Origin: Streptomycetaceae bacterium
GTDB taxonomy: Bacteria; Actinomycetota; Actinomycetes; Nanopelagicales; Nanopelagicaceae
NCBI GenBank assembly: GCA_027483765.1
Contig: JAIXTW010000002.1
Span: forward strand, 1 to 64,000
Length of the DNA stretch: 64,000 nt
Reading direction: 5' to 3'
The notes below the pieces were generated by a model. That model made no database searches and was not told where the DNA came from. It saw only the letters and a program-made list of their open reading frames with translations. Below, piece by piece: positions 2,932 through 24,498 of this stretch (positions are counted from its first letter, which is position 1; each line of letters begins with the position of its first letter). Position numbers and translations under genes: made by a program.

Positions 2932-3315
2932 TTACTTGAGGGTGACCTTTGCGCCAGCTGCTTCGAGAGCTGCCTTTGCCTTATCTGCTGTCTCCTTGTT
3001 GACCTTCTCAAGAAGTGTTGCAGGAGTTGCATCGACGAGATCCTTAGCTTCCTTGAGACCAAGAGCTGAGTTGAGGTTACGTACTTCCTTGATAACCGCA
3101 ATCTTCTGTGATCCTGCTTCTTCGAGGATAACTGTGAACTCATCTTGTGCATCTGCTGCGCCGCCTGCTGCTGCGCCGCCTGCTGCTGCAACTGCAACTG
3201 GTGCTGCTGCTGTTACATCGAACTCTGTTTCAAATGCCTTTACGAACTCTGAGAGCTCAACGAGTGTGAGTTCCTTGAACTGAGCCAAAAGGTCTGCTTG
3301 TGAGAGCTTTGCCAT
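2932..3315 (-). CDS. rplL: 50S ribosomal protein L7/L12
   Basis: Stalk protein of the large ribosomal subunit that recruits elongation factors. At 127 aa it has the family length: an N-terminal dimerisation helix ([21 protein letters not shown]), an Ala/Gly-rich hinge near residues 37-55, and the C-terminal domain with [25 protein letters not shown]. It lies 18 nt downstream of rplJ, as expected for the L10(L12)n operon, and is followed by the composite hairpin. The start ATG has AAAGGA just upstream. Confidence 0.97.
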
Positions 3316-3333
3316 TTTTTATTGTCCTTTTCT

Positions 3334-3990
3334 TTATTCCGCTGGAGTTTCTGTTGCTTCCGCAACTGGTGCATCTGTTGCTTCAGCAGCAACTTCAGCG
3401 ACTGCTTCAGCAGCTGGTGCTGCTTCTTCAGTTACAACTGTTTCTTCTACTGCAGGTGCAGCTGGTGCTTCAACCACGGCTTCTGCCACTGGTGCTGCAG
3501 CTGGTGCTCCTGCTTCCATCTTGATGCGTAGTGCATCGAATGAACGCGCTGCCTTAGCAAGCGATCCCTTCATTGCACCAGCAAGCTTTGCAAGAAGTAC
3601 TTCTCGAGACTCGAGATCTGCGAGCTTCATGATCTCCGCTGTTGTAACAAACTTTCCTTCATAGATTCCACCCTTGATAACAAGAAGTGGGTTCTCCTTC
3701 TGGAAGTTCTTTAGGTTACGAGCTGCATCGATTGCATCGCCCTTAATGAATGCAACAGCTGATGGACCAGCAAGGAGATCATCAGAGATCTCAACGCCAG
3801 CGTTCTTTGCTGCAATCTTTGTAAGAGTGTTCTTAACTACGCTGTACTTGGTATCTGCACCAAGGCTGCGGCGTAGCGCCTTCATCGATGTCACGGTAAG
3901 ACCGCGATACTCGGTGAGGTAAGTCGCTGTAGCTGACTTGAAATCTTCAGTCAGTTCAGCAACTGCTGCTGCTTTATCTGGGCGAGCCAT
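3334..3990 (-). CDS. rplJ: 50S ribosomal protein L10 with long Ala/Glu/Pro-rich tail
   Basis: L10 anchors the L7/L12 stalk and is normally the translational repressor of its own operon. The core is clear: [47 protein letters not shown], then the helix that binds L12. I chose the ATG with AAAGGTGA 5 nt upstream rather than a GTG nine bases earlier that lies inside the ribosome binding site. The protein is 218 aa, longer than the usual 165-180, because of a low-complexity acidic tail from about residue 160 on, rich in AP, EA and VAE. The tail is in frame and ends at a normal stop, so it is probably a real disordered extension. Confidence 0.96.
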
Positions 3991-11298: not shown

Positions 11299-11415
11299 CT
11301 AATTGCAGGAACAGCGCTCTGATTCAGGTACTCCTTGAAGTGCCTCTTCAATATGCTCACCGCATCCTTGCCAGGTTGGCTTCGCACACTTGGTGCATTG
11401 AACTTTGCTACACAT
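11299..11415 (-). CDS. 38-residue Cys-rich small protein
   Basis: An AGGAGG ribosome binding site 4 nt before ATG opens a 38-codon frame: MCSKVQCTKCAKPTWQGCG, then EHIEEALQGVPESERCSCN. Cysteines at C2, C7, C10, C18, C35 and C37, including CxxC and a terminal CxC, suggest metal binding. Short proteins with the C-x-x-C-x-K-x-T-W-x-G-C-G-x-H pattern occur widely in Actinobacteria without known function (from memory). It lies 8 nt after the FUSC gene, so it is probably the last gene of the SAM-riboswitch operon. Confidence 0.8.
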   Translation of the reverse strand: MCSKVQCTKCAKPTWQGCGEHIEEALQGVPESERCSCN

Positions 11416-11423
11416 ATTTCCTC

Positions 11424-12596
11424 CTAGAAATACTTTCGGAATACTTTTCTAATTCTATTCCAGATGGGAGAGGTCTGCTCGAGCGGAGATACTTTTAAAA
11501 CTCGATCCTTCGCTGGCTCCTCTGGAGTCATGACATCTGTGATTGCAGGAGAGTTCTGATCAAGTGAGTCAGCAATTCGGTCAATATTGGCAACGATTGA
11601 TAGGCCGCGCACAATCTGCTCTTGGTCAACATCGGTTGCATCTTCAATAAGGGATTCGGCAAGAGCAGACCCTGCTTCACGAGCATCATCTGTCGGGGTC
11701 GAATCAAAATCATTAATGTCATCAGGTGAATCGATGTGTGCGGAGATTGCATAGCTTGCAGCCGATAGCGCTACTGCAATCTGTTTCTTTCTAGATTCAG
11801 CAATTCCGCCTTCAACGGCAGAGTCAAAGAGCGTTCTTGCAATAGTGCGCACCTGCACCAAGGTGTGTTCGGCTGCAACACCAGCGATGTAAATTTCTTC
11901 AGCTTCATCTTTTTCGGCAGTAGGAAACCATCGCGCATGGCTGCGTGCTTCAACTGACTGAGCGCGAATTGCCGGAACTTCTTCTACCAATAAACGTGCA
12001 CGCGCTAACCAACTACCGGCATCTTTTTGGGTGTAACCAGCGGCAACACCTTCAGACATTTCAGCAAGGAGAGCGGCTGCCTTTGTACTTACATTTTTTA
12101 TCTGAATTTGTGCTCTGCCTACTGGGGTATTGGGATGTGAGAAGTAGGAGAAGAAAATTGCGATTGCGGCTCCAATAAGAGTGGAACCAAGTCGATGAAG
12201 TGCTGTGCTCTCTGAAATTCCAGGACCGATAACAATGAGCGCCGTCACTGGAACGTTCACCGAAGCTACCTCGCCAAGATGGAGCGCTCTTGCAATCACT
12301 GCGCAGGCAATAATTGTTGTTGCTACCGCTAAAAATCCGAAGTTGAAGAGAGTGACAGTCAGGAGTGCGATACCGGCACCGATTGCTGTTCCTACAATTT
12401 GGCCAAAACCTTCTCGTACTGACTTTTGGAGCGATATGCGAATGCTCAGCGTGCATACGATCGCGGCGACCACGCCACCATCTTCAATAAGTAGATCTCC
12501 AACAAACCAGGAGACGCCACCGGCTAAACCGGCAACAAAAATCTGGCGAACCCAGTTCTTCCGGTTCTTAAAGAGGTAATAGAATTTCTTAAACAT
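11424..12596 (-). CDS. FUSC-family (aromatic acid exporter-like) membrane protein
   Basis: 390-residue membrane protein. The N-terminal half (to about residue 165) has about six hydrophobic spans, such as IFVAGLAGGVSWFVGDLLI, TVTLFNFGFLAVATTIIACAVIARAL and LGSTLIGAAIAIFFSYFSH. The remainder is helical and cytoplasmic with a charged acidic C-terminal part. This layout fits FUSC/ArAE-type proteins, which are often small-anion exporters. The start is the ATG 18 nt after the permease stop; a TTG 9 nt earlier is possible. Its place behind an importer under a SAM riboswitch suggests a link to sulfur compounds, which is inference. Confidence 0.75.
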   Translation of the reverse strand: MFKKFYYLFKNRKNWVRQIFVAGLAGGVSWFVGDLLIEDGGVVAAIVCTLSIRISLQKSVREGFGQIVGTAIGAGIALLTVTLFNFGFLAVATTIIACAVIARALHLGEVASVNVPVTALIVIGPGISESTALHRLGSTLIGAAIAIFFSYFSHPNTPVGRAQIQIKNVSTKAAALLAEMSEGVAAGYTQKDAGSWLARARLLVEEVPAIRAQSVEARSHARWFPTAEKDEAEEIYIAGVAAEHTLVQVRTIARTLFDSAVEGGIAESRKKQIAVALSAASYAISAHIDSPDDINDFDSTPTDDAREAGSALAESLIEDATDVDQEQIVRGLSIVANIDRIADSLDQNSPAITDVMTPEEPAKDRVLKVSPLEQTSPIWNRIRKVFRKYF

Positions 12597-12614
12597 TAAG
12601 AGCAAGTTTACGCT

Positions 12615-13370
12615 CTACTTGTTCCAGGCGAGGACTCTCTTTTCAATTGTCGCCAGAATAAAGTCAGATGTTTTTCCTAAAATCGCCAGCGCCAAGATGG
12701 AAAAGATCACGATATCTGTGCGGGCCGAGCTCTGACTATCAATCAGGAGGAATCCCAATCCCTTGGCACTAGCAATTAGCTCGGCAGCAACAAGGAAGAG
12801 CCAACTCTGTGCCAACCCTAAGCGAAGACCAGAAAAGATTTGTGGGGCTGCTGCTGGAAGATAAATTCCTTTAATGATTGCCCAACGCTTAAGTCCATAA
12901 GCACGGCCAACCTCTACTAAGTGGCGATCAACGTTATTGATTCCAGAGACCACGGTTGTGAATACCGGGAAAAATGCCCCGATTCCGATGAGTGTGAGTT
13001 TTGAACCCTCACCGATTCCAATCCAAATGATTAGAAGCGGAACCCACGCAAGTGAGGGCACTGCGCGAATAGCTTGAAGTAGTGGTGTTACTAATCTGTT
13101 GACGATTTTATTAAGTCCGGCTGCAGATCCAAGAGCGAGTGCAATCAAGGTTCCGAAGAAGTAACCGAGTGCAACTCTTTGAATGCTGGCGCCAATATTC
13201 AACCAAAGTTGATCGCGCTCATTGAGCTCAGAGATGACCTTAAAGACAGAAGAAGGCTTGGGAAGCTCGCTCTCTGCGAAAGACCCATTGCTGCTGAAAT
13301 AAATCCAAGCCGCAAAAAGTGCAATCGGGAGAATGAGTCCCAGAAGGAAATTCCCAAGCCGTCTCTGCAT
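12615..13370 (-). CDS. ABC transporter permease, SsuC/TauC type
   Basis: Inner-membrane permease of a nitrate/sulfonate/taurine-type importer. 251 aa with about six spans. The cytoplasmic coupling loop is visible as EVGRAYGLKRWAIIKGIYLPAAAPQIFSGLRLG, the EAA-like motif with the conserved G and LP. It follows the binding protein by 14 nt. Substrate class comes from family and from the SAM riboswitch at the head of the operon. Confidence 0.9.
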   Translation of the reverse strand: MQRRLGNFLLGLILPIALFAAWIYFSSNGSFAESELPKPSSVFKVISELNERDQLWLNIGASIQRVALGYFFGTLIALALGSAAGLNKIVNRLVTPLLQAIRAVPSLAWVPLLIIWIGIGEGSKLTLIGIGAFFPVFTTVVSGINNVDRHLVEVGRAYGLKRWAIIKGIYLPAAAPQIFSGLRLGLAQSWLFLVAAELIASAKGLGFLLIDSQSSARTDIVIFSILALAILGKTSDFILATIEKRVLAWNK

Positions 13371-13384
13371 TACTTATTCGTCTC

Positions 13385-14365
13385 TTACTTCAGCGCTCGT
13401 AGCGCATATGAAGTGTCATAAAGGCTAGTCAGAGCAGAGTCTGCGTCAGCCTGTGATCGAACCTGGGCATCGCTAACCAAGATTGGTTTAATAGCTGCCA
13501 AGACTCCCGATTGCAATGAGCCGGGCACCAATGGAACTCTCACTTTGGTGCGATTTACCAAGACGTTCTTTGCAACATCGAGATCAATCTTTGCTGAATC
13601 AGCAAGAATCTTCGCAGCTTTATCTGGGTTAGCAAGAATCCAGGTACGTGCCTTTTGGTAATTCTTCAACACCGCAATGGCGATATCTCGATTGCTCTTC
13701 AAGAAATCTTCACGGGCGCTAATGATTCCCCATGTGTTAAGAGCTTTATTCTCGTAAATTACCTTGCTGCCATCGACCTTTACAGTCTGTGAAGTAATCG
13801 GATCAAGACCTGACCACACATCGACATCGCCACGAAGAAGTGCTGCTTTACCATCGGCATGAGCCAAGTTAACAATAGTGACATCCTTAAATGGGTCGAG
13901 CCCCTTGTTATTCAATACTTGCAACAAGAAGAAGTAAGGATCTGTTCCCTTTTGAGCTGCAATCTTCTTTCCTTTGAGCTGTCCAGGTCTGATGGTTGAA
14001 CCCTTCTTCACAACAAGGGCAGCCCAATTTGGCTGGCTAAATACTGCGATTGATTTAATTGCTACTCCGTTTGCACGGGCAACGTACGCCGCAACTCCAG
14101 CAGATGATCCAAGCTGAATTGCATTCGCATTTAAGTTCTGAATAGCAGCCGCTGAACCAGCTGAATAAACCCAGTTCACCTTTGTATCAAGGGCTTTAAG
14201 ATCTGTCTCCAGCCAACCCTGATCCTTAATGACCAAACTAAGTGGATTCCAGTTAGCGTAATCGAGGTTAAGTGTGCGCTCTGCCGCCTGCGCCGGTGAA
14301 GCAGCAACACCAAGAGCTACTAGAGCTCCGACGATTACTGAGATTACAAGATTCTTTCTTTTCAT
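13385..14365 (-). CDS. ABC transporter substrate-binding protein, SsuA/NMT1-like
   Basis: Secreted binding protein: start at the ATG giving MKRKNLVISVIVGALVALGV, a signal peptide ending AQAAE. The mature part has the SsuA-like layout: LNLDYANWNPLSLVIKDQGW, a ligand segment AGSAAAIQNLNANAIQLGSS, LKGKKIAAQKGTD and DVDVWSGLDP. 326 aa is normal. Members bind aliphatic sulfonates, taurine, nitrate or thiamine precursors. With metY divergent and a SAM riboswitch in front, an organosulfur ligand is the best guess. Confidence 0.88.
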   Translation of the reverse strand: MKRKNLVISVIVGALVALGVAASPAQAAERTLNLDYANWNPLSLVIKDQGWLETDLKALDTKVNWVYSAGSAAAIQNLNANAIQLGSSAGVAAYVARANGVAIKSIAVFSQPNWAALVVKKGSTIRPGQLKGKKIAAQKGTDPYFFLLQVLNNKGLDPFKDVTIVNLAHADGKAALLRGDVDVWSGLDPITSQTVKVDGSKVIYENKALNTWGIISAREDFLKSNRDIAIAVLKNYQKARTWILANPDKAAKILADSAKIDLDVAKNVLVNRTKVRVPLVPGSLQSGVLAAIKPILVSDAQVRSQADADSALTSLYDTSYALRALK

Positions 14366-14400
14366 TCTAATGATGCCTCTCAAATTTATCTAAAAGTTAA

Positions 14401-15177
14401 TTAAGCGTGGATTCCGAAGATGGAATAGAGCTCGGTACGAACCGATGCCACTGCCGCGTCTTTGCGATCACGTGGATGTGCAAGATTTAACTCGAATGTG
14501 CGCTTCACACCTTGGCCGCGTTCACCCAATACAACGATTCGATCTGCTAAATACAAGGCCTCATCAATGTCATGAGTGACAAGAATTATTGTCACTCCTG
14601 TTGTCGCAACTACCTGCGACAAAAGGTCCTGCATCTGCAATCGAGTAAGTGCATCGAGTGCGGCTAGCGGTTCATCAAGCAGTAGAACTTGTGGCTCAGA
14701 GATCAGTGCCCGAGAGAGTGCGGCACGTTGTGCCATTCCACCGGAAACCTGTCGCGGCAAACATGCCGCGAAATCTCCTAAGCCAACTTCTGCCAGAAGC
14801 TGTAGCGCTTTTGCTTTGTCCTTACGCCCTCTTAATCCAAGCTCAACATTTTCAACAATGGTGCGCCATGGAAGGAGCCGAGGCTCTTGGAATACGATCG
14901 AACATCGCTCATCGAGGCCGGTGATTTTTCTATCATCAATTCTTACTTCGCCACCTGTTGGTACTTCAAGACCAGCAATAAGTCGCAAAAGTGTTGACTT
15001 ACCGCAGCCGCTCGGGCCGAGAAGTGCAACTATTTCTCCAGACTTGATATCAAGATTTACATCTTTGATAACAGAGAGTTCTTTACCTTTGCGAGTAAAT
15101 GACTTAGATAGATTCTTTAGTGAAACGTTTGCAGCATCAGTCTTATGAATGACCGATTGCGCATATGTAGTACTCAT
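14401..15177 (-). CDS. ABC transporter ATP-binding protein, SsuB/TauB type
   Basis: ATPase that drives the importer. Walker A GPSGCGKSTLLRLIAG (about residue 55), Q-loop IVFQEPRLLPWRT, signature VSGGMAQRAALSRAL, Walker B VLLLDEPLAALD and the H-loop VTHDIDEAL are all intact in 258 aa. It is the first gene of the operon. The start codon is 11 nt after the closing stem of the SAM-riboswitch-like fold and its AGGGGG ribosome binding site abuts that stem, so translation is probably repressed by SAM. Confidence 0.93.
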   Translation of the reverse strand: MSTTYAQSVIHKTDAANVSLKNLSKSFTRKGKELSVIKDVNLDIKSGEIVALLGPSGCGKSTLLRLIAGLEVPTGGEVRIDDRKITGLDERCSIVFQEPRLLPWRTIVENVELGLRGRKDKAKALQLLAEVGLGDFAACLPRQVSGGMAQRAALSRALISEPQVLLLDEPLAALDALTRLQMQDLLSQVVATTGVTIILVTHDIDEALYLADRIVVLGERGQGVKRTFELNLAHPRDRKDAAVASVRTELYSIFGIHA

Positions 15178-15180
15178 ACT

Positions 15181-15267
15181 TCCCCCTCATCGTTACTAGC
15201 ATTAGCACCGTTTTGGTTATCGGTTGCTGCGACTTCACTGAGCTAGTTCTCTCAGTCGCTCTTGATG
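15181..15267 (-). promoter_or_regulatory. SAM riboswitch of the SAM-I/IV clan
   Basis: RNA read on the minus strand contains S-box core features in order: CATC-AAGAG (P1 and J1/2), P2 GCGACT/AGTCGC with a GA/AGTGA kink-turn-like interruption, a GAG/CTC tip with loop AACTAG, then GCAACC, P3 ACCG/CGGT, GTGCTAAT, and P1 closure GATG. The P2 loop ACTAG can pair with CTAGT in J3/4, the pseudoknot of SAM-I riboswitches (there usually ACTGG with CCAG). No P4 hairpin fits between J3/4 and P1, so it is closer to the compact SAM-I/IV variants. P1 abuts the ribosome binding site AGGGGGA, implying translational control. Confidence 0.85.
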
Positions 15268-15386: not shown

Positions 15387-16697
15387 ATGTCTGAACGTCA
15401 ATGGGGATTTAAGACCCGCTCATTACATGCAGGTGCCTCCCCGGATCCTCAGACTGGCGCCCGCGCCGTTCCGATTTACCAGACCTCTGCGTTCGTGTTT
15501 GAAAATACCGAGGATGCCGGAAATCTTTTTGCGCTACAAAAGTATGGAAATATCTACAGCCGAATTGGAAACCCAACAGTTGCTGCCTTTGAAGAGAAGA
15601 TTGCAAGTCTTGAAGGTGGCATTGGCGCAGTTGCAACCGCGTCCGGAATGTCTGCCCAGTTTTTAGTTTTCGCCGCACTCCTTGAAGCTGGTGATCATGT
15701 TGTCTCTACCTCTGCGCTATACGGTGGAACAGTTACGCAACTCGATGTCACTCTTCGCCGCTTTGGTGTTAATACTGAATTCGTCTCTAGCGACAAGCCA
15801 GAAGATTTTGCAGCAAAGATTACGGATAAAACAAAATTTATTTATGCTGAGATGGTCTCTAACCCGGCATCGATGGTCGCAGATATCGAAGGACTTGCAA
15901 AGGTCGCCCGCGAAGCAGGCATTCCGCTGGTTGTCGATTCAACATGTGCAACTCCCTATCTTGCGCGTCCCATTGAATTTGGCGCAGACATCGTCATTCA
16001 CTCTGCAACAAAGTTCTTGGGTGGCCATGGAACAACGCTCGGTGGAGTAATCGTTGATTCTGGAAAATTTAACTGGGGTAATGGAAAATTTCCTTCAATG
16101 GTGGCACCAGTTGCCTCTTATGGCGGAGTCTCATGGTGGGAAAACTTTGGCGAGTATGGATTCCTGACAAAGATTCGCTCAGAACAACTACGTGATATCG
16201 GACCTGTTCTTGCACCTCACTCTGCATTCCTTCTTATTCAAGGTGTTGAGACGCTCTCTCAGCGTATGGCGGATCACGTCAAGAATGCGAAGGCAGTTGC
16301 TGAATATCTTGCATCTGATCCGCGCGTGGAATGGGTGAAGTACGCCGGACTTAAAGATCATCCACATTATTCACGTGCTCAGAAGTATCTACCTGAAGGA
16401 CCGGGTGCGGTCTTCTCATTCGGCGTAAAGGGCGCTGGCGAACTCAGTGGGCGCGCAGCTGGTGAGAAATTTATTAACTCAGTGAAGTTGGCAAGCCACT
16501 TGGCCAATATTGGCGATGTACGCACGCTAGTGATTCACCCAGCAAGTACCACGCACCGACAATTAACAGATGACCAACTTATTGAAGCTGGTGTTCCGCA
16601 AGATTTGGTGCGCATCAGTGTGGGCATTGAAGATATCGAGGATATTTTGTGGGATCTCGACCAAGCCCTGGCTATTGCAACAGGTCGTGGCCGCTAA
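15387..16697 (+). CDS. metY: O-acetylhomoserine sulfhydrylase
   Basis: PLP enzyme of the Cys/Met metabolism family that makes homocysteine from O-acetylhomoserine and sulfide. 436 aa is the long MetY length, against about 390 for MetB/MetC. It has FKTRSLHAGASPDPQTGARAVPIYQTSAFVF, YSRIGNPTVAAFEEKIASLEGG, the PLP-lysine block HSATKFLGGHGTTLGGV, and SLASHLANIGDVRTLVIHPAS (here KLASHLAN). GGGAGAAG precedes the ATG by 7 nt. It is divergent from the SAM-riboswitch importer, which fits a methionine locus. Confidence 0.95.
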   Translation: MSERQWGFKTRSLHAGASPDPQTGARAVPIYQTSAFVFENTEDAGNLFALQKYGNIYSRIGNPTVAAFEEKIASLEGGIGAVATASGMSAQFLVFAALLEAGDHVVSTSALYGGTVTQLDVTLRRFGVNTEFVSSDKPEDFAAKITDKTKFIYAEMVSNPASMVADIEGLAKVAREAGIPLVVDSTCATPYLARPIEFGADIVIHSATKFLGGHGTTLGGVIVDSGKFNWGNGKFPSMVAPVASYGGVSWWENFGEYGFLTKIRSEQLRDIGPVLAPHSAFLLIQGVETLSQRMADHVKNAKAVAEYLASDPRVEWVKYAGLKDHPHYSRAQKYLPEGPGAVFSFGVKGAGELSGRAAGEKFINSVKLASHLANIGDVRTLVIHPASTTHRQLTDDQLIEAGVPQDLVRISVGIEDIEDILWDLDQALAIATGRGR

Positions 16698-17185
16698 TGA
16701 CATGGAGTGAACCATCTGCTCGCGCACGACTAGACATCATGAAGAACGCCCAAACCGTGGCGATTGTTGGTGCTTCAGATAATGCTGCCCGAGCAAGTTA
16801 CTTTGTTTCAACCTATTTGATGTCGAGCTCACACTTTAAACTTTTCTTTGTAAATCCGCGTTTAGAGACCTTGCTTGGTCAGCCTGTCTATAAATCATTG
16901 GCCGATATCCCTGAGCACGTTGATATTGTCGACGTCTTTAGAAAACCTGCCGATTGTTTGGGAATTCTCGACGAAGCAATCGCGATTAAAGCCGGTACCG
17001 TATGGCTACAACTAGGAATTTCAGTTCCTGAGGTTGCCGAAAAAGGTAGCGCTGCTGGAATCAATGTGGTGATGAATCGTTGCTTGAAGATTGAACATGC
17101 TCGGTTCCATGGCGGACTTCATTTAGCTGGATTTAATACTGGCGTAATTTCTTCACAGCGAAATGCAAAAAAGGGCGAAAACTAA
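16697..17185 (+). CDS. CoA-binding domain protein (YccU-like)
   Basis: 162-residue single-domain Rossmann protein: NAQTVAIVGASDNAARASYFVSTYLM near the N-terminus (GASD dinucleotide/CoA motif), FFVNPRLETLLGQPVYKSLADIP, DVFRKPADCLGILDEAI and VWLQLGI, then VVMNRCLKIEHARF. The family is related to the CoA-binding half of succinyl-CoA synthetase; its function is unknown. Its ATG overlaps the metY stop in TAATG, so it is translationally coupled to metY. It ends one base before the converging SDR gene. Confidence 0.88.
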   Translation: MTWSEPSARARLDIMKNAQTVAIVGASDNAARASYFVSTYLMSSSHFKLFFVNPRLETLLGQPVYKSLADIPEHVDIVDVFRKPADCLGILDEAIAIKAGTVWLQLGISVPEVAEKGSAAGINVVMNRCLKIEHARFHGGLHLAGFNTGVISSQRNAKKGEN

Positions 17186-17923
17186 TTACTTAGGGATTCG
17201 CAAACCTTGCATGCCGCCATCTACCGCCAGTGAAGTTCCTGTTGTCGATGCTTGTAACGGGCTTGCTAAATAGCAGAGTGCTCGTGCAACTTCTTCGGCG
17301 CTAACTAAACGGCCAAGCGGTTGGCGTGCCTCCAACGCCTTACGTTCTGCAACTGGATCAGCAGCTTGTGCCAATAGTCGCTGAACCCATGGAGTATCAG
17401 CAGTTCCAGGATTTACACAGTTCACGCGCACGCCATCTTGCAGATGGTCATTTGCCATGGCAAGAGTGAGAGAGAGAACTGCGCCTTTGGTAGCGCTGTA
17501 GAGCGCGCGCTTTGGAATGCCGGCAGTTGCTGCGATTGAACAGACGTTGGTAACGGATGCGGCGCTGCTCTTGCGCAGCAAGGGAAGCGCCAAACGAACT
17601 GTGCGCACAATGCCAACTACGTTGATATTCATTACCTTGTGCCACTCTTCTGATGAGTTGGTTTCTACGGTACCGGTGGCACTAATGGCAGCACTATTAA
17701 TCAAGATATCTAGTTGTGAAATCTTTGCAAAGGCAGCAGTAACTGACTCATCATCACCAACATCGCATTGCAGCCAAGTGCCGAATTCAGTGATTCCGCC
17801 TTCGGCAATATCTAATCCGAAGACGGTAGCTCCGCCATCGTGCAATAACTTAAGTGTTGCTAATCCGATTCCAGAACCTGCGCCAGTAACCGCAGCGGTG
17901 AGGCCTTTAAATTCTTGACTCAT
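17186..17923 (-). CDS. SDR-family dehydrogenase, probably 2-keto-3-deoxy-L-fuconate or L-fucose dehydrogenase
   Basis: Classical short-chain dehydrogenase, 245 aa: TGAGSGIGLATLKLL (NAD(P) motif), LDILINSAAIS, VTNVCSIAATAGI, and the catalytic YSATKGA (Tyr-x3-Lys); the C-terminal part has VNCVNPGTADTPW. Its ATG overlaps the fuconate dehydratase stop by 4 nt. In the non-phosphorylating fucose pathway an SDR acts either on L-fucose or on 2-keto-3-deoxy-L-fuconate; the position directly after the dehydratase favours the latter. Confidence 0.82.
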   Translation of the reverse strand: MSQEFKGLTAAVTGAGSGIGLATLKLLHDGGATVFGLDIAEGGITEFGTWLQCDVGDDESVTAAFAKISQLDILINSAAISATGTVETNSSEEWHKVMNINVVGIVRTVRLALPLLRKSSAASVTNVCSIAATAGIPKRALYSATKGAVLSLTLAMANDHLQDGVRVNCVNPGTADTPWVQRLLAQAADPVAERKALEARQPLGRLVSAEEVARALCYLASPLQASTTGTSLAVDGGMQGLRIPK

Positions 17924-19218
17924 GCATTTGCCCATTCTTTACCGTGCGGGAATGTGAAGTCCGCAATTGATTGTGCGTGCATCTCACCACCCGCACCTGG
18001 TTCAGTAGGCGGCATGTAATGAGCATTTTTAATATTGGTTGGCACAACAAAGTGCTCGTGCAGATGATCCACAAATTCAACAACACGCCCTGGATGGTGG
18101 CCTGATACCGCAACGGCATCAAACATTGCTAAGTGCTGGACCAGCTCACAGAGTCCGACTCCGCCTGCGTGCGGGCAGACAGGAACGCCAAACTTTGCCG
18201 CCATCAAGATATTTGCAATGTTTTCATTGACACCAGCTACTCGCGTGGCATCAATTTGCATAAATGAAAAAGATTTAGCTTGCAGCATCTGCTTAAAGAG
18301 AATGCGGTTCATCCCGTGCTCACCAGTGGCAACGCGCACTGGCGCAATAGCTTTTGCAATTGCTGCGTGGCCAAGCACGTCATCAGGATTTGTTGGTTCT
18401 TCAATCCAATGAAGATTGACATCGCCAATGCCCTTAATCCATTCGATAGCTTGATTGACATCCCACACCTGGTTGGCATCAATCGAAATTTTGATATCTG
18501 GCCCAACGGCTTCGCGCGCTAATCTGAGTCTGCGCTTGTCATCTTCAAGAGATCCGCCGCATTTGAGTTTAATTAAGGTGTACCCATCAGCGACAGCTTC
18601 TTTCGCTAAACGAACCATCTTCTCATCCGAATAACCAAGCCAACCCGGAGTTGTTGTATATGCCGGTAGGCCTTCAGCCATCATCTTCGCTTCATTTGCA
18701 GCGCGGTCTGGCAGAGTCTTGCGCAAAATTTCAAGTGCTTCCTCAGGAGTGAGCGCATCTGTGATGTAGCGGAAGTCAACGAGCTCAACAATTTCTTCTG
18801 GAGATAAATCTGAAAGGAATTTCCATAGCGGCTTCTTTGCATGCTTTGTGACTAAATCCCACGCAGCGGTAATTACAGCACCGGCTGCCATTTGTGTAAC
18901 ACCTTTTTCAGGTCCGAGCCATCTAATTTGTGAATCGCGCACCAAGCTTCGCGCAAAATCTCCCATGCTCTTTGATAAATCATCGAGATCGCGGCCAACT
19001 GCATATGGTGCAAGTTGCTCAATGGTCTGGCACTGCAGATCGTTTCCGCGTCCACATGTAAATACAAATCCATGTCCCTGCAGATTCGGATCATCTGTCT
19101 CTAAGATAACAAGTGCGGCAGAATAATCTGGCTCCTTATTCATTGCATCAGATCCATCTAACCCACGTGAAGTTGGAAAGCGGACATCTACAGTTCTGAA
19201 CCCAGTTATCTTCGGCAT
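17920..19218 (-). CDS. L-fuconate dehydratase (enolase superfamily)
   Basis: Mandelate-racemase-type dehydratase turning L-fuconate into 2-keto-3-deoxy-L-fuconate. 432 aa as in characterised FucD/ENOSF1. Diagnostic segments: RFPTSRGLDGSDAMNKEPDYS, LIKLKCGG (general base Lys), SIDANQVWDV and WIEEPTNPDDVLGHA (metal ligands), VATGEHGMNR, and CPHAGGVGLCELVQHL with the catalytic His. The first gene of a two-gene minus unit, divergent from the lactonase/transporter genes across a region with a palindrome. Confidence 0.92.
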   Translation of the reverse strand: MPKITGFRTVDVRFPTSRGLDGSDAMNKEPDYSAALVILETDDPNLQGHGFVFTCGRGNDLQCQTIEQLAPYAVGRDLDDLSKSMGDFARSLVRDSQIRWLGPEKGVTQMAAGAVITAAWDLVTKHAKKPLWKFLSDLSPEEIVELVDFRYITDALTPEEALEILRKTLPDRAANEAKMMAEGLPAYTTTPGWLGYSDEKMVRLAKEAVADGYTLIKLKCGGSLEDDKRRLRLAREAVGPDIKISIDANQVWDVNQAIEWIKGIGDVNLHWIEEPTNPDDVLGHAAIAKAIAPVRVATGEHGMNRILFKQMLQAKSFSFMQIDATRVAGVNENIANILMAAKFGVPVCPHAGGVGLCELVQHLAMFDAVAVSGHHPGRVVEFVDHLHEHFVVPTNIKNAHYMPPTEPGAGGEMHAQSIADFTFPHGKEWANA

Positions 19219-19274
19219 CGTTATCCCTGTTCTGAATTACTTATTGTGCAAAGAAAAACGCTCTTCGCTTGGAC

Positions 19275-19300
19275 AGAAAAATCATATATGATGATTTTCT
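19275..19300. promoter_or_regulatory. Palindromic candidate operator in the fucose divergent region
   Basis: The 12-bp perfect palindrome ATCATATATGAT (19281-19292) is flanked by AGAAAA and, after a 2-nt insert, TTTTCT, making a longer imperfect inverted repeat. It contains a TATGAT -10-like hexamer. It is about 60 bp from the dehydratase start and 40 bp from the lactonase start, so one regulator could act on both. GntR- or LacI-type binding is possible; no regulator gene is nearby. Confidence 0.5.
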
Positions 19301-19331
19301 GGAGCGATACAGGAATCTCTTAGGGGAAAAG

Positions 19332-20183
19332 ATGAAGATTGATTCACACCATCACCTATGGGATCTAGCTGCACGGCCACAGACCTGGATGGTTGGCGAT
19401 AATCTCGATGCTGTTCGTCGCAACTTCGATACCAACGATTTACGTGAAGCTATCGCGGGTACCGACATTGAGAAGACAATTCTTGTTCACGCTACATCGA
19501 CCCACGATGAGACCTACGAAATGCTCGCACTGGCTGAGGCAGACCCGATGCTTATTGGCGTCGTAGGCTGGCTTCAGATCGATTCACCCGATGCAATCAA
19601 AGATTGTGAAAAGTACTTGCGGGCCCCTGGTGCAAGTTATCTCAAAGGAATTCGTGATGTTGCCCAGGATTTACCAGACTCAAGTTTCCTAGCCAAGCCA
19701 CAGTCAATTGCAACTGTAAGAGAACTTGGCAAACTCGGATTGACCTATGACATTTTGACAAAGACTCCAGAACTTAGAGCAGCTATCGAATTAGTGCGTG
19801 CATGTCCCGATGTTTCATTTGTTCTCGACCACATTTCAAAACCGTATATTGCAAAACAGGAAATGGAACCTTGGAAATCACTCATTACCGAACTTGCATC
19901 GTTTGACAATGTTGTGTGCAAGATTTCTGGAATGGTGACCGAAGCAAAATGGAATGCTTGGGAAGTATCCGACTTTGCACCTTATGTTGATCACATCATT
20001 GAAAGTTTCACGCCGCAGCGCCTGATGTTTGGATCTGATTGGCCGGTAGCTTTATTGGGCACTTCAACTTATTCACAGGTCGTTCAGCTAGCCGAAGCAG
20101 TGACCCAGGGATTTTCAAAGTCGGAAAATGAGCAGTTCTGGAGTAAAACCGCGATTCACGCATACCAGATAACGAATCTGTAA
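19332..20183 (+). CDS. L-fuconolactonase / amidohydrolase
   Basis: COG3618-type amidohydrolase expected to open L-fucono-lactone to L-fuconate. The N-terminal metal motif is KIDSHHHLWD, followed by AGTDIEKTILVHAT, VVGWLQIDS, FVLDHISKPYI, a VCKISGMVTEA segment and RLMFGSDWPVALL, which carries the catalytic Asp. I start at the ATG preceded by AGGGGAAAAG (283 aa). It supplies the step before the fuconate dehydratase encoded divergently. Confidence 0.88.
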   Translation: MKIDSHHHLWDLAARPQTWMVGDNLDAVRRNFDTNDLREAIAGTDIEKTILVHATSTHDETYEMLALAEADPMLIGVVGWLQIDSPDAIKDCEKYLRAPGASYLKGIRDVAQDLPDSSFLAKPQSIATVRELGKLGLTYDILTKTPELRAAIELVRACPDVSFVLDHISKPYIAKQEMEPWKSLITELASFDNVVCKISGMVTEAKWNAWEVSDFAPYVDHIIESFTPQRLMFGSDWPVALLGTSTYSQVVQLAEAVTQGFSKSENEQFWSKTAIHAYQITNL

Positions 20184-20288
20184 CAATCACCACCAAATCC
20201 CGACTTTCTTCGATTAAATCTTGCCGGCACCAAGGCCCATCGCCTAGATTGCGCTTACAGCAATTCGGCTGCTTTCGAAAGGAAACAC

Positions 20289-21287
20289 ATGAAGAAAGGT
20301 CTACTTTCAGTAGCTGCAGTAGCAGCACTGGCGCTGGTAGCTGGCGTTAACGCTCCAGTACAAGCTGCAGACAAGACCCTTAAGATTGAACTGATCTCAA
20401 AGGGCGAAACTCACCAATTTTGGCAGGCAGTAAAGAAGGGTGCTCAAGATCAAGCTAAGAAGATGAACGCAGAAATTAACTTCGTCGGACCAGCAGCAGA
20501 AACAATGATCGACAAGCAACTTGAAATGCTTGACACAGCAATTGCAAAGAAGCCAGATGCAATCGGCTACGCAGCACTTGGAACAACACAGTCATTGACA
20601 CGTCTCAAGGCTGCTAAGGATGCAGGAATCCCTGTGTACCAGTTCGATACAGCAGCTGATACACCTGGTGGAGTCAAGGCACTTGGTCCAAAGTCTGACT
20701 ACGCACTTGGCGTTGCATACACAAACAGCACAGCTGCAGGTTCACTTGCTGCTGACAAGATGGCTGCACTGATCGGTAACAAGGGTAAAGTCCTAGTTGT
20801 TGGTCACTCACAGACAAACCAGACTGGTATTGATCGCGCAAACGGATTTACAAACCGCATCAAGGCTAAGCACAAGGGCATCACACTCCTCACAGTTCAG
20901 TACGCTGAAGGTGGAGACGCTCTTAAGGCTCAGGAAATCGTAAGCGCAGCACTTGTTGCTAACAAAGACCTCAAGGGTGTTTACGGAACTAACGAAGGCG
21001 TTTCAATCGGAGCTGGCCAGGCATTCAAGGCAGCTAAGTTGAAGAACGGCGCAGTTAAGTTGATCGGCTTCGACTCAGGAAAGCAGCAGATGGCAAACAT
21101 CAAGTCTGGTCTTCAGACTGGTGCTATCACACAGAGCCCAATGGGTATCGGTGCTAAGACTGTAGAAGCTCTTGTTAACTACGTACGTAACAAGACAGTT
21201 CCAAAGAACCTTATCGATACAGGTTTCTACTACTACGATAAGAGCAACATCGCAAAGCCAGAAATCGCTGGAAACCTTTACGAATAA
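20289..21287 (+). CDS. Sugar ABC transporter substrate-binding protein (RbsB-like)
   Basis: Periplasmic-binding-protein type 1 solute receptor. Signal peptide MKKGLLSVAAVAALALVAG...VQAAD, then LKIELISKGETHQFWQAVKKGAQDQAKKM, DAIGYAALG, DAGIPVYQFDTAAD and LIGFDSGKQQMANIKSG with TGAITQSPMGIG at the C-terminus. 332 aa. AAAGGAAA stands 4 nt before the ATG. Family members carry ribose, xylose, fucose, rhamnose and others; context points to L-fucose or a related deoxysugar. Confidence 0.9.
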   Translation: MKKGLLSVAAVAALALVAGVNAPVQAADKTLKIELISKGETHQFWQAVKKGAQDQAKKMNAEINFVGPAAETMIDKQLEMLDTAIAKKPDAIGYAALGTTQSLTRLKAAKDAGIPVYQFDTAADTPGGVKALGPKSDYALGVAYTNSTAAGSLAADKMAALIGNKGKVLVVGHSQTNQTGIDRANGFTNRIKAKHKGITLLTVQYAEGGDALKAQEIVSAALVANKDLKGVYGTNEGVSIGAGQAFKAAKLKNGAVKLIGFDSGKQQMANIKSGLQTGAITQSPMGIGAKTVEALVNYVRNKTVPKNLIDTGFYYYDKSNIAKPEIAGNLYE

Positions 21288-21288
21288 G

Positions 21289-21353
21289 TCGAATTTTCGA
21301 CTCTTTTGTAATAAATGAAGAGATGATGGCCGGGAGAAATCTCGGCCATCATC
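21289..21353 (+). terminator. Hairpins between binding-protein and ATPase genes
   Basis: Two structures: AGTCGAA/TTCGACT with a TT loop followed by CTTTTG right after the stop codon, and a perfect 11-bp stem GATGATGGCCG/CGGCCATCATC (21322-21353) with a 10-nt loop followed by CTTTATT. Neither has a strong T-tract. They probably cause partial termination or protect the upstream mRNA, giving more binding protein than ATPase or permease. Confidence 0.65.
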
Positions 21354-21406
21354 CTTTATTGTTGGTCAATCTGCTTCACATCAACTTTAGTTTTCGGGGT
21401 AAATAA

Positions 21407-22930
21407 ATGGCATCAGCACAACTCCTCTCCCTCACTGGAATAAGCAAGGAATTTCCGGGAGTAAAAGCCCTTCAAAATGTGCGCTTTGATCTCAATGAAG
21501 GTGAAGTCCATGCGATTGTGGGCGAGAACGGTGCCGGCAAATCAACACTGATGAAAATCATCTCTGGAATTTATAAGAAAGATTCTGGCGAGATTCTCTA
21601 CAAAGGTAAGTCAGTCTCAATCTCGAGCCCATTTGAAGCACAAAAACTTGGGATTAGCATTATTCACCAAGAACTTAACCTAATGCCGCACCTGACCGTG
21701 GCAGAAAATATCTTTATTGGGCGTGAAGATCGCCGTCCTGGACGAGTTTTTCTTGATAATTCAAAGTTAGTCGATGGTGCGACAAAGTTACTGAAAGAAC
21801 TGGACCTTAACCTGGACCCAAATGCAATCGTTGGCGAGCTCACTATCGCCAAGCAGCAGATGGTAGAAATCGCAAAGGCAGTTTCTTATCGTGGCTCGGT
21901 AATCATTATGGATGAGCCAACTTCTTCACTGACGCCGGCTGAGACCGAGTCTCTCTTTAAGATTATTCGTACACTCAAAGCTTCCGGCAAAGGTGTTGTC
22001 TACATCTCCCACCGCCTAGAAGAACTTGAGAAGATTACAGATCGAATCTCTGTCTTGCGTGATGGTGAATATGTGCAGACCTTAAAGACTTCAGAGACCA
22101 GCATCCCTGAGGTCATTTCGCTAATGGTGGGAAGAAAAGTTGCACAGGACCAGCGTCCTGAAAATCGCAAGGTTAGCTCAGAAGTTGTCCTGCGCGTTGC
22201 GAACATCTCAGATCGCCACTTACTTAAAGACATTTCTTTCGAGCTTCGCAAGGGTGAAATTCTTGGTTTTGCCGGCCTTATGGGTGCAGGACGTACTGAA
22301 CTTGCTCGCGTAATCATGGGCGCTGACCCGAAGAATGTTGGAGAGATTTACCTGCACGGTAAAGAGGTAAAGATTAAGGGACCATCTGATGCCGTAGCTG
22401 CAGGAATTGGATACCTATCAGAAGATAGAAAGCGCTTTGGTTTGCTGCTTGGGCAAGACATCACCTTCAATGTAATTCTCTCTTCAATTCCACGATTCTC
22501 AAATAAATTCGGATTCCTCAAGGTCAAATCTGCTACCGGAATTGCACGTGGAGCAATCGACCAATTGCGTGTTCGTACACCCTCTGAACGCCAGTATGTA
22601 AAGAATCTTTCCGGTGGTAACCAGCAGAAAGTGGTCATTGCAAAGTGGCTCACTCGTGACTGTGACGTATTGATATTTGATGAACCCACACGCGGTATCG
22701 ATGTCGGCGCCAAAGATGAGATCTATCGTCTGCTGACCAAGCTAGCTGAAGAAGGTAAATCAATCATCATGATTTCATCTGAGCTGCCAGAAGTCCTACG
22801 TCTCTCAGATCGCATCGCGGTAATGTGCAACGGCCGCCTGACTGCAATTCTTGATAATAAAGATGCAACGCAGACCAACATTATGGAATATGCAACAAAA
22901 TTCAGCGAAGACTTAACGGCAGTTAACTAA
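21407..22930 (+). CDS. Sugar ABC transporter ATPase (RbsA-like, duplicated)
   Basis: 507-residue protein with two ABC domains. First half: Walker A GENGAGKSTLMK, degenerate signature ELTIAKQQMVEIAKA, Walker B VIIMDEPTSSLTP. Second half: degenerate Walker A GLMGAGRTELARV, canonical signature LSGGNQQKVVIAKWL, FDEPTRGIDVGAK and ISSELPEVL. This is the normal asymmetry of the family. It energises the permease that follows 19 nt later. Confidence 0.93.
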   Translation: MASAQLLSLTGISKEFPGVKALQNVRFDLNEGEVHAIVGENGAGKSTLMKIISGIYKKDSGEILYKGKSVSISSPFEAQKLGISIIHQELNLMPHLTVAENIFIGREDRRPGRVFLDNSKLVDGATKLLKELDLNLDPNAIVGELTIAKQQMVEIAKAVSYRGSVIIMDEPTSSLTPAETESLFKIIRTLKASGKGVVYISHRLEELEKITDRISVLRDGEYVQTLKTSETSIPEVISLMVGRKVAQDQRPENRKVSSEVVLRVANISDRHLLKDISFELRKGEILGFAGLMGAGRTELARVIMGADPKNVGEIYLHGKEVKIKGPSDAVAAGIGYLSEDRKRFGLLLGQDITFNVILSSIPRFSNKFGFLKVKSATGIARGAIDQLRVRTPSERQYVKNLSGGNQQKVVIAKWLTRDCDVLIFDEPTRGIDVGAKDEIYRLLTKLAEEGKSIIMISSELPEVLRLSDRIAVMCNGRLTAILDNKDATQTNIMEYATKFSEDLTAVN

Positions 22931-22949
22931 CACGGGAAAAGAGAGAGAC

Positions 22950-23966
22950 ATGTCAGAAGCAACCAAGAGCGCGAATCAGCCTGAAGGCGGAAGTAAAGTG
23001 GCAGCACTTGTTCGCCGTGAACTAGGCAGACTTACTGCGGTCGCCAGCCTTGTGGTGATCTTTACCTTCTTCACCATCATGCGCCCCGTGTTTGCCTCTT
23101 GGCAAAATGTTTCAGGCGGTATTTTGATGTCGACAACAGTTATTGGCTTACTAGCCATTGGTAGTACCTTTGTGATTATCACCGGTGGAATCGATCTATC
23201 TGTTGGTACATCCATGGCACTCGTTGCAATCATTACCGGTAAAACAGTTATGGCCCTTGACCTCAATGTATGGAGCGGAATTCTCTTTGGTATGGTCGTA
23301 GGAGGACTTTTGGGCGCAGTCAACGGATTGCTCATCACACTCCTTAAACTGCCACCATTTATTGCGACTCTTGCAACTATGAAGGGTGCACAAGGACTTG
23401 CACTTATCGTCTCTGATCTCAAGCCAATTCTCTTCACAACAGATGTAAAGGGTTGGGACTCCATCGCCCAGGGAAATATCATTCCAAACTTCCCTAACGG
23501 CGTACTCATTCTCTTGGTCGCAGCAATTGTGGGTTCAATCATTCTTAATAAGACAGTGCTTGGCCGATACACATTTGCAATCGGATCAAACACTGAAGCG
23601 ACAAAGCTTTCGGGCGTCAAGGTTAATCACTGGCTTGTTGCCATCTATGCCCTCTGCGGCGTTTATGTCGGCCTTGCTGCAGTGGTGATGACATCGCGCC
23701 TTGGTTCAGCGCAACCTGACCTCGGACTTGGCTATGAACTCGAAGCTATTGCTGCGGTAATTATTGGTGGAACTTCACTTCTTGGCGGCAAAGGAACAAT
23801 CTCAGGAACCATCATTGGTGCGCTCATCATGTCTGTACTAATCAACGGACTACGTATCCTTGAATTGCAGCAAGAGTGGCAGTACGTAGTAGTTGGCGCA
23901 GTAATTCTTCTCGCAGTGTACGGAGATAACGTACGTCGTCGCCGCGCAGGTGAATCTGTTAACTAG
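22950..23966 (+). CDS. Sugar ABC transporter permease (RbsC-like)
   Basis: 338 aa with around 8-10 hydrophobic spans; hallmarks are TGGIDLSVGTSMALVAI, LPPFIATLATM, AIGSNTEATKLSGVKV (coupling loop) and EAIAAVIIGGTSLLGGKGTISGT. A single permease gene implies a homodimer. GAGAGAGACATG provides the start. It closes the transporter operon and ends 14 nt from the converging msrB. Confidence 0.93.
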   Translation: MSEATKSANQPEGGSKVAALVRRELGRLTAVASLVVIFTFFTIMRPVFASWQNVSGGILMSTTVIGLLAIGSTFVIITGGIDLSVGTSMALVAIITGKTVMALDLNVWSGILFGMVVGGLLGAVNGLLITLLKLPPFIATLATMKGAQGLALIVSDLKPILFTTDVKGWDSIAQGNIIPNFPNGVLILLVAAIVGSIILNKTVLGRYTFAIGSNTEATKLSGVKVNHWLVAIYALCGVYVGLAAVVMTSRLGSAQPDLGLGYELEAIAAVIIGGTSLLGGKGTISGTIIGALIMSVLINGLRILELQQEWQYVVVGAVILLAVYGDNVRRRRAGESVN

Positions 23967-23980
23967 TTGCTGTTAACTAG

Positions 23981-24379
23981 TTACTTTTTCTCCTCGAGGT
24001 ACATCGCTACCGAGTTTATGCACCAACGCTCATCTGTTGGAACGTCATAGCCTTCGCCTGAAAATACGTGGCCGAGGTGCGAATCGCACTTGGCGCAACG
24101 CACCTCTGTACGAATGCGTGGTGCCAACGAACGGTCTTCAATAAGTGTTACTGCATCATCGGCAGTTGGCGCGTAAAAAGATGGCCATCCGCATCCTGAG
24201 TGGAACTTTGTCTCAGAGGTGAAAAGTACGCTCTGGCAGACTTTGCAGCGATAGCTTCCAACCTTGTCAGTGTCGTTGTATTCACCGGTAAATGGACGTT
24301 CTGTGGCACCTTCGCGCAGCACTGAGTAAGAGAGTGGATCAAGACGAGCCTTGAGTTCTTCTTCGTTAATTGGTTCCAT
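23981..24379 (-). CDS. msrB: Peptide methionine (R)-S-oxide reductase
   Basis: Repairs oxidised methionine (R form) in proteins. 132 aa: TERPFTGEYND, zinc-binding CKVCQSV and VRCAKCDSHLGHVF, substrate region FHSGCGWPSFY, and RWCINSVAM with the catalytic Cys. I use the ATG with AGGAGATTG upstream, not an in-frame start 33 nt before it. Confidence 0.95.
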   Translation of the reverse strand: MEPINEEELKARLDPLSYSVLREGATERPFTGEYNDTDKVGSYRCKVCQSVLFTSETKFHSGCGWPSFYAPTADDAVTLIEDRSLAPRIRTEVRCAKCDSHLGHVFSGEGYDVPTDERWCINSVAMYLEEKK

Positions 24380-24498
24380 CTCAATCTCCTCACGCGCACG
24401 ATAGGTGGGCAAAAATACCCCAGCGTGCCGGATTTGGGTAATCCTTGCGAATGCCTATACCTGCACCTACCCTTAGATACAACGAAAAGGTGGCGGCG

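Follow-up and report, generated by a model that had tools for sequence, protein, structure and literature searches.

The window, by which we mean the whole 64,000-nt stretch of DNA analysed, carries on its minus strand genes for an SsuABC-like ABC importer, directly preceded by a compact S-box riboswitch, and on its plus strand, divergent from both, metY and the gene of a CoA-binding-domain protein (Table 1). Counted down from the ATPase gene, the intergenic gaps are 17, 14, 9 and 8 nt, spacings that make an operon reaching through the FUSC-type gene and the Cys-rich ORF plausible; judged by these gaps, control by the switch could extend to both of the latter. The 38-aa Cys-rich protein had no match in Pfam, and among the loci compared this genome (G000) and its sister (G001) are the only two with a FUSC gene beside the importer. 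The structure model of the substrate-binding protein (SBP; mean pLDDT 88.3) has its nearest folds in the SsuA proteins of Xanthomonas and E. coli (3ksx, 2x26), and SsuA is also the top PDB match by sequence. With the aliphatic sulfonate importer SsuABC the system shares the SBP subfamily (TIGR01728) and fold and the ATPase-SBP-permease operon; it differs in that no SsuD-type monooxygenase or sulfite reductase was found in the genome, and metY is linked instead.

Table 1. Features of the riboswitch, importer and metY locus, with positions in the window.
Feature	Position	Strand	Evidence and remarks
38-aa Cys-rich protein (MCSKVQCTKCAKPTWQGCGEH...)	11299..11415	minus	8 nt after FUSC; conserved in sister genome (76%)
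FUSC/ArAE-type membrane protein	11424..12605	minus	PF13515 38.2 bits; 9 nt after permease
ABC permease, SsuC/TauC-like	12615..13370	minus	PF00528 105.1 bits
Substrate-binding protein, SsuA family	13385..14383	minus	TIGR01728 SsuA_fam 180.8 > 163.5; fold
ABC transporter ATPase, SsuB-like	14401..15177	minus	PF00005 123.9 bits; best NCBIfam is sulfonate ATPase, below cut-off
Shine-Dalgarno AGGGGG adjoining P1	15182..15187	minus	sequence; P1-flank/SD-flank pairing test
SAM-I (S-box) riboswitch aptamer without P4	15184..15271	minus	RF00162 59.0 bits; R1 101.7 bits
P1 3' strand core GAUG, Shine-Dalgarno directly next	15188..15191	minus	
J3/4 pseudoknot strand CUAGU	15195..15199	minus	3 nt from P1, no space for P4
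P3 hairpin, AGCAACCG/CGGUGCU	15204..15228	minus	
P2: P2a GCGAC/GUCGC, kink-turn loop UGA/AGUGAA, P2b GAG/CUC	15229..15259	minus	
L2 pseudoknot strand ACUAG	15243..15247	minus	pseudoknot covariation
P1 5' strand core CAUC	15264..15267	minus	pairs with 15191-15188; P1 covaries in 31 relatives
Putative promoter TTGCAA - 17 nt - TAATTT or TATTAA	15272..15312	minus	kept in sister genome; predicted only
metY, O-acetylhomoserine sulfhydrylase	15387..16697	plus	TIGR01326 602.3 > 495.1; divergent, outside switch control
CoA-binding-domain protein after metY	16724..17185	plus	PF13380 127.3 bits; pair kept across loci

In a cmscan of the whole 64-kb window the element matched RF00162 (SAM, S box leader) over the full model (positions 1-108) with 59.0 bits (E 4.2e-11), and 15271-15184 on the minus strand is the single RF00162 place in the whole 1.29-Mb genome. 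The Rfam search that the initial annotation had proposed therefore gives a match above the gathering score of 44.4 bits, and the S-box core lies ahead of the ATPase gene as that annotation had it. It had also described a P1 abutting the ribosome binding site and a missing P4, both of which hold: P1 has four core pairs (CAUC/GAUG) and an A.A mismatch, the Shine-Dalgarno (SD) sequence follows directly, the ATG of the ATPase gene (15177) comes 10 nt past P1, and just 3 nt separate the pseudoknot from P1, leaving P4 absent. A consensus scan for a sigma-70 promoter and a terminator found neither.

Relatives were gathered by taking SBP homologues, with their flanks, from the class and from named genomes and scanning them with Rfam. 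Compact SAM-I elements lie directly upstream of importer ATPase genes in two loci (L045, L051); in L034 such an element stands upstream of a short leader ORF followed by the ATPase gene, and L036 has one before the ATPase gene plus another elsewhere in the locus. A covariance model, R1, was built from an alignment of six compact elements (A2) and searched over 394 genomes of the class. It gave a strong group scoring more than 54 bits, followed by a long tail between 30 and 50 bits, presumably SAM-IV and further members of the clan. Alignment A3 is made up of the 31 strong places, and its lowest-scoring rows (L098, L100 and L101) are less certain members; the compact switch is common to about 20 other actinobacteria. 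Across the 31 sequences P1-P3 are 96.5% paired, with covariation equalled by 0 of 500 shuffles, and P2a is 100% paired with three doubly changed pairs. The ACTAG/CTAGT pseudoknot that the initial annotation had called covarying is paired in 98.7% of cells in these relatives, with changes on both sides at four of its five pairs; 0-2 of 500 shuffles were as high, and the test is independent because the pseudoknot is not part of R1. Such shuffles overstate significance because the sequences are kin, and a slid-partner control, which keeps kinship, agrees with the shuffle result. The distance from pseudoknot to P1 is 3 nt in 30 of the 31 and 4 nt in one, which makes a P4 impossible in all of them, and the kink-turn GA is found on both strands in 30-31 of 31. 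For the ligand contacts, crystal numbering was carried over to alignment columns by way of the SAM-I sequence, a mapping we assume to be right. On that mapping, the columns for the SAM contacts given in PMC6890682 are identical in 30-31 of 31.

Methionine and sulfur genes make up most of those downstream of compact switches. MetN/MetQ, metE, metF, O-succinylhomoserine sulfhydrylase, a NirA-type reductase with CysG, a monooxygenase and an AcsA-like gene follow switches elsewhere. Compact SAM-I-like elements also stand before genes outside methionine metabolism, namely those of a GNAT acetyltransferase (L089, L093), a 2OG oxygenase (L098) and a peroxiredoxin (L084, L085). Short ORFs lie directly 3' of the SAM-I element, before the first structural gene, in L034 (about 7520-7425, minus strand), L086, L090 and L091; that of L034 is Cys/Met-rich (MSIEPTAHTPLLLVSCLEMDCMRMSSALCLR) and that of L091 contains Cys; leader-peptide attenuation stacked on the riboswitch is possible.

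That the element is a genuine SAM-I riboswitch lacking P4 is well supported, and its class is where we depart from the initial annotation, which had named it SAM-I/IV-like and likened its loss of P4 to SAM-I/IV. By published definition, P2 of the SAM-I/IV variants has no internal loop (PMC2864571); these RNAs possess P4 but not PK-1, and in SAM-IV P4 is absent and P5 and PK-2 are present (PMC6890682). The likeness had therefore been drawn the wrong way round. In the window RNA the P2 internal loop and PK-1 are present and P4, P5 and PK-2 are absent, an anatomy that makes it a SAM-I without P4. Membership of SAM-I/IV (RF01725) or SAM-IV (RF00634) would be in keeping with the SAM clan core common to all, with the absence of P4 from SAM-IV and with a weak RF01725 match, yet that match reaches 27.2 bits against a cut-off of 41.1, RF00634 has no match at the switch though on another contig of the genome it detects a SAM-IV of 98.6 bits (before metX, and so a positive control for the search), and between P1 and the start codon there is no space for P5 or PK-2. 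Scores and anatomy alike contradict either identity, which we consider extremely unlikely and have rejected. The core sequence, P1, kink-turn P2, P3, the L2/J3-4 pseudoknot and the SD beside the 3' side of P1 are as in SAM-I (RF00162), from which the compact form differs by the missing P4 and the 3-nt link between pseudoknot and P1 seen in 30 of 31 relatives. SAM-IV resembles it in lacking P4, in PK-1, in a short P1 and in being actinobacterial, and is set apart by P5 and PK-2, which the compact form lacks, and by the longer SAM-I kink-turn loop of the latter; SAM-I/IV shares the clan's binding core and is otherwise its reverse, without P2 internal loop and PK-1 and with P4. Of the features by which SAM-I is recognised, the covariance score, the GA/GA kink-turn loop of P2 and the L2/J3-4 pseudoknot were found and the P4 helix was not, so we file the element as a SAM-I variant rather than as canonical SAM-I. 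L004, a full-length SAM-I from the same bacterial family, has a P4-like hairpin at the place of P4. A literature search for P4-less SAM-I found no description, and since the key structural papers lie outside its scope, novelty is provisional.

Given a SAM-I fold, one could still envision an aptamer that in its compact form senses another ligand, for example SAH. The missing P4, with its contacts, would fit such a shift, as would the few relatives that precede GNAT acetyltransferase, peroxiredoxin and 2OG oxygenase genes; the near invariance of the SAM-contact columns in 31 sequences and the predominance of methionine and sulfur genes downstream make it highly unlikely, and SAM is the probable ligand on sequence grounds. 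A further possibility is that the importer cassette was transferred and brought the element with it as a relic without function. The importer is sporadic (of the 201 genomes of the order, only G000 and G001 have its SBP, and both carry the switch), and P1 contains the A.A mismatch; RF00162 is found in 3 of 151 genomes of the order, the third having longer SAM-I elements, of which one precedes metH. Decay sits poorly, however, with the comparison of G000 and G001, in which identity is 85% in the ATPase gene and 80% in metY but just two bases have changed between the putative promoter and the start codon, and with a lone change inside the aptamer that turns a P1 A.G mismatch into U.G, so we give the relic very little credence. 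Genus members that have metY and lack the importer carry a cupin-type gene opposite or close to metY.

We consider it very probable that the element is a compact P4-less, cis-acting SAM-I switch through which SAM keeps the SsuB-like ATPase gene, and with it the importer operon, from being translated; it would probably shut off importer translation when methionine is plentiful. Abundant SAM would fill the pocket formed by P1, P3, J1-2 and J3-4, and the SAM-bound RNA would lock P1, together with the extension on its outer side, onto the neighbouring SD, blocking translation of the ATPase and, by coupling, of the rest of the importer operon. At low SAM, a P1 weakened by its short core and mismatch would let the ribosome bind and the importer be made, and the imported reduced organosulfur compound would feed methionine synthesis through MetY/MetH. 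In the 31 sequences the 5' flank of P1 pairs with the SD-bearing 3' flank at a mean of -9.55 kcal/mol, against -7.73 +/- 0.39 kcal/mol for shuffled partners (0/200), a covariation that supports translational OFF control. In SAM-I riboswitches whose aptamer itself sequesters the ribosome binding site, that site forms part of the 3' side of P1 (PMC2258182). RNAfold prefers another structure (-34.0 kcal/mol, as compared to -15.3 for the pseudoknot-free aptamer) and leaves the SD unpaired even with the aptamer forced, so we dropped it as proof of SD occlusion, the flank-shuffle test having shown pairing instead; occlusion would then rest on the extension of P1 and on steric blocking.

The initial annotation had proposed an organosulfur compound or methionine precursor, not nitrate, as the substrate, and the SBP bears this out, exceeding the TIGR01728 cut-off and folding as SsuA; a nitrate importer is rejected because the SBP is SsuA-type, not nitrate-type, by both family model and fold. 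Standard alkanesulfonate use is likewise rejected. The genome, which has MetH, metX and metY, contains no sulfite reductase domain (PF01077), no luciferase-type monooxygenase (PF00296) and no MetQ, absences that are provisional because it is 96% complete; ordinary alkanesulfonate use is thus unlikely, and sulfite, if released, would not be reducible by any known enzyme. A reduced organosulfur compound is the likeliest cargo, and streamlined Nanopelagicales need reduced sulfur (PMC7527133); judged by its size, this genome probably belongs to that group. The SAM-IV element mentioned above (98.6 bits; G000:C7:148246-148355, or L003 1501-1610, minus strand) precedes metX, encoding homoserine O-acetyltransferase, so that a single methionine pathway has switches from two classes of the SAM clan. 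An MsrB-like methionine sulfoxide reductase gene, recognised by eye, lies at 23981-24412 (minus strand) of the window and not beside the switch.

The gene order ATPase-SBP-permease-AcsA-like-metY-CoA-binding recurs in actinobacteria (L043, L047 and L048, and L052 within the sequence compared); in L034 metY directly follows the permease, and in Chloroflexota (L029, L030, L032) importer, metY and CoA-binding gene occur together. In the loci of families f36, f17 and f4 no switch motif was seen upstream of the importer, which means that SAM control of this importer is not universal. Genes for an AcsA-like acyl-CoA ligase recur between the importer or a SAM-I switch and metY (L036, L039, L042, L043, L045, L047, L048, L052, L083). 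A parallel is Ca. Pelagibacter ubique, likewise a streamlined genome without sulfate reduction in which SAM switches on sulfur genes, metY included, block the ribosome binding site; there the switches are SAM-V on biosynthetic genes, whereas here a SAM-I switch sits on an importer and metY is divergent (PMC5069961).

We put forward only tentatively, as somewhat less probable than its contrary, that the compact elements form a separate P4-less SAM-I subclass acting by SD occlusion in actinobacteria and marking a sulfur-scavenging module. The module would consist of importer, MetY and CoA-binding protein, in many cases joined by an AcsA-like CoA ligase and a DmoA-like monooxygenase. Were this so, the module would import an organosulfur acid or sulfide, with methanethiol or sulfide passing to MetY for direct methionine synthesis. 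The compact form indicates that SAM-I can lose P4, one of the standard helices of its class, and yet keep kink-turn and pseudoknot, and in structure it bridges the gap from SAM-I to SAM-IV. An SsuABC-like importer that recurs beside metY in two phyla would be tied to methionine status, which offers a lead on sulfur acquisition by streamlined bacteria without sulfate reduction.

In L045 two elements stand divergently, back to back: a SAM-IV (3282-3390, minus strand) that precedes the gene of a DmoA/NtaA-like flavin monooxygenase, and the SAM-I (3566-3662, plus strand) that precedes the importer. Beyond the CoA-binding gene, positions 17186-23966 of the window hold in a row genes for an SDR, an enolase-superfamily dehydratase, an amidohydrolase and a ribose-type ABC importer, which by eye look like a sugar catabolic cluster, possibly of the fucose type.
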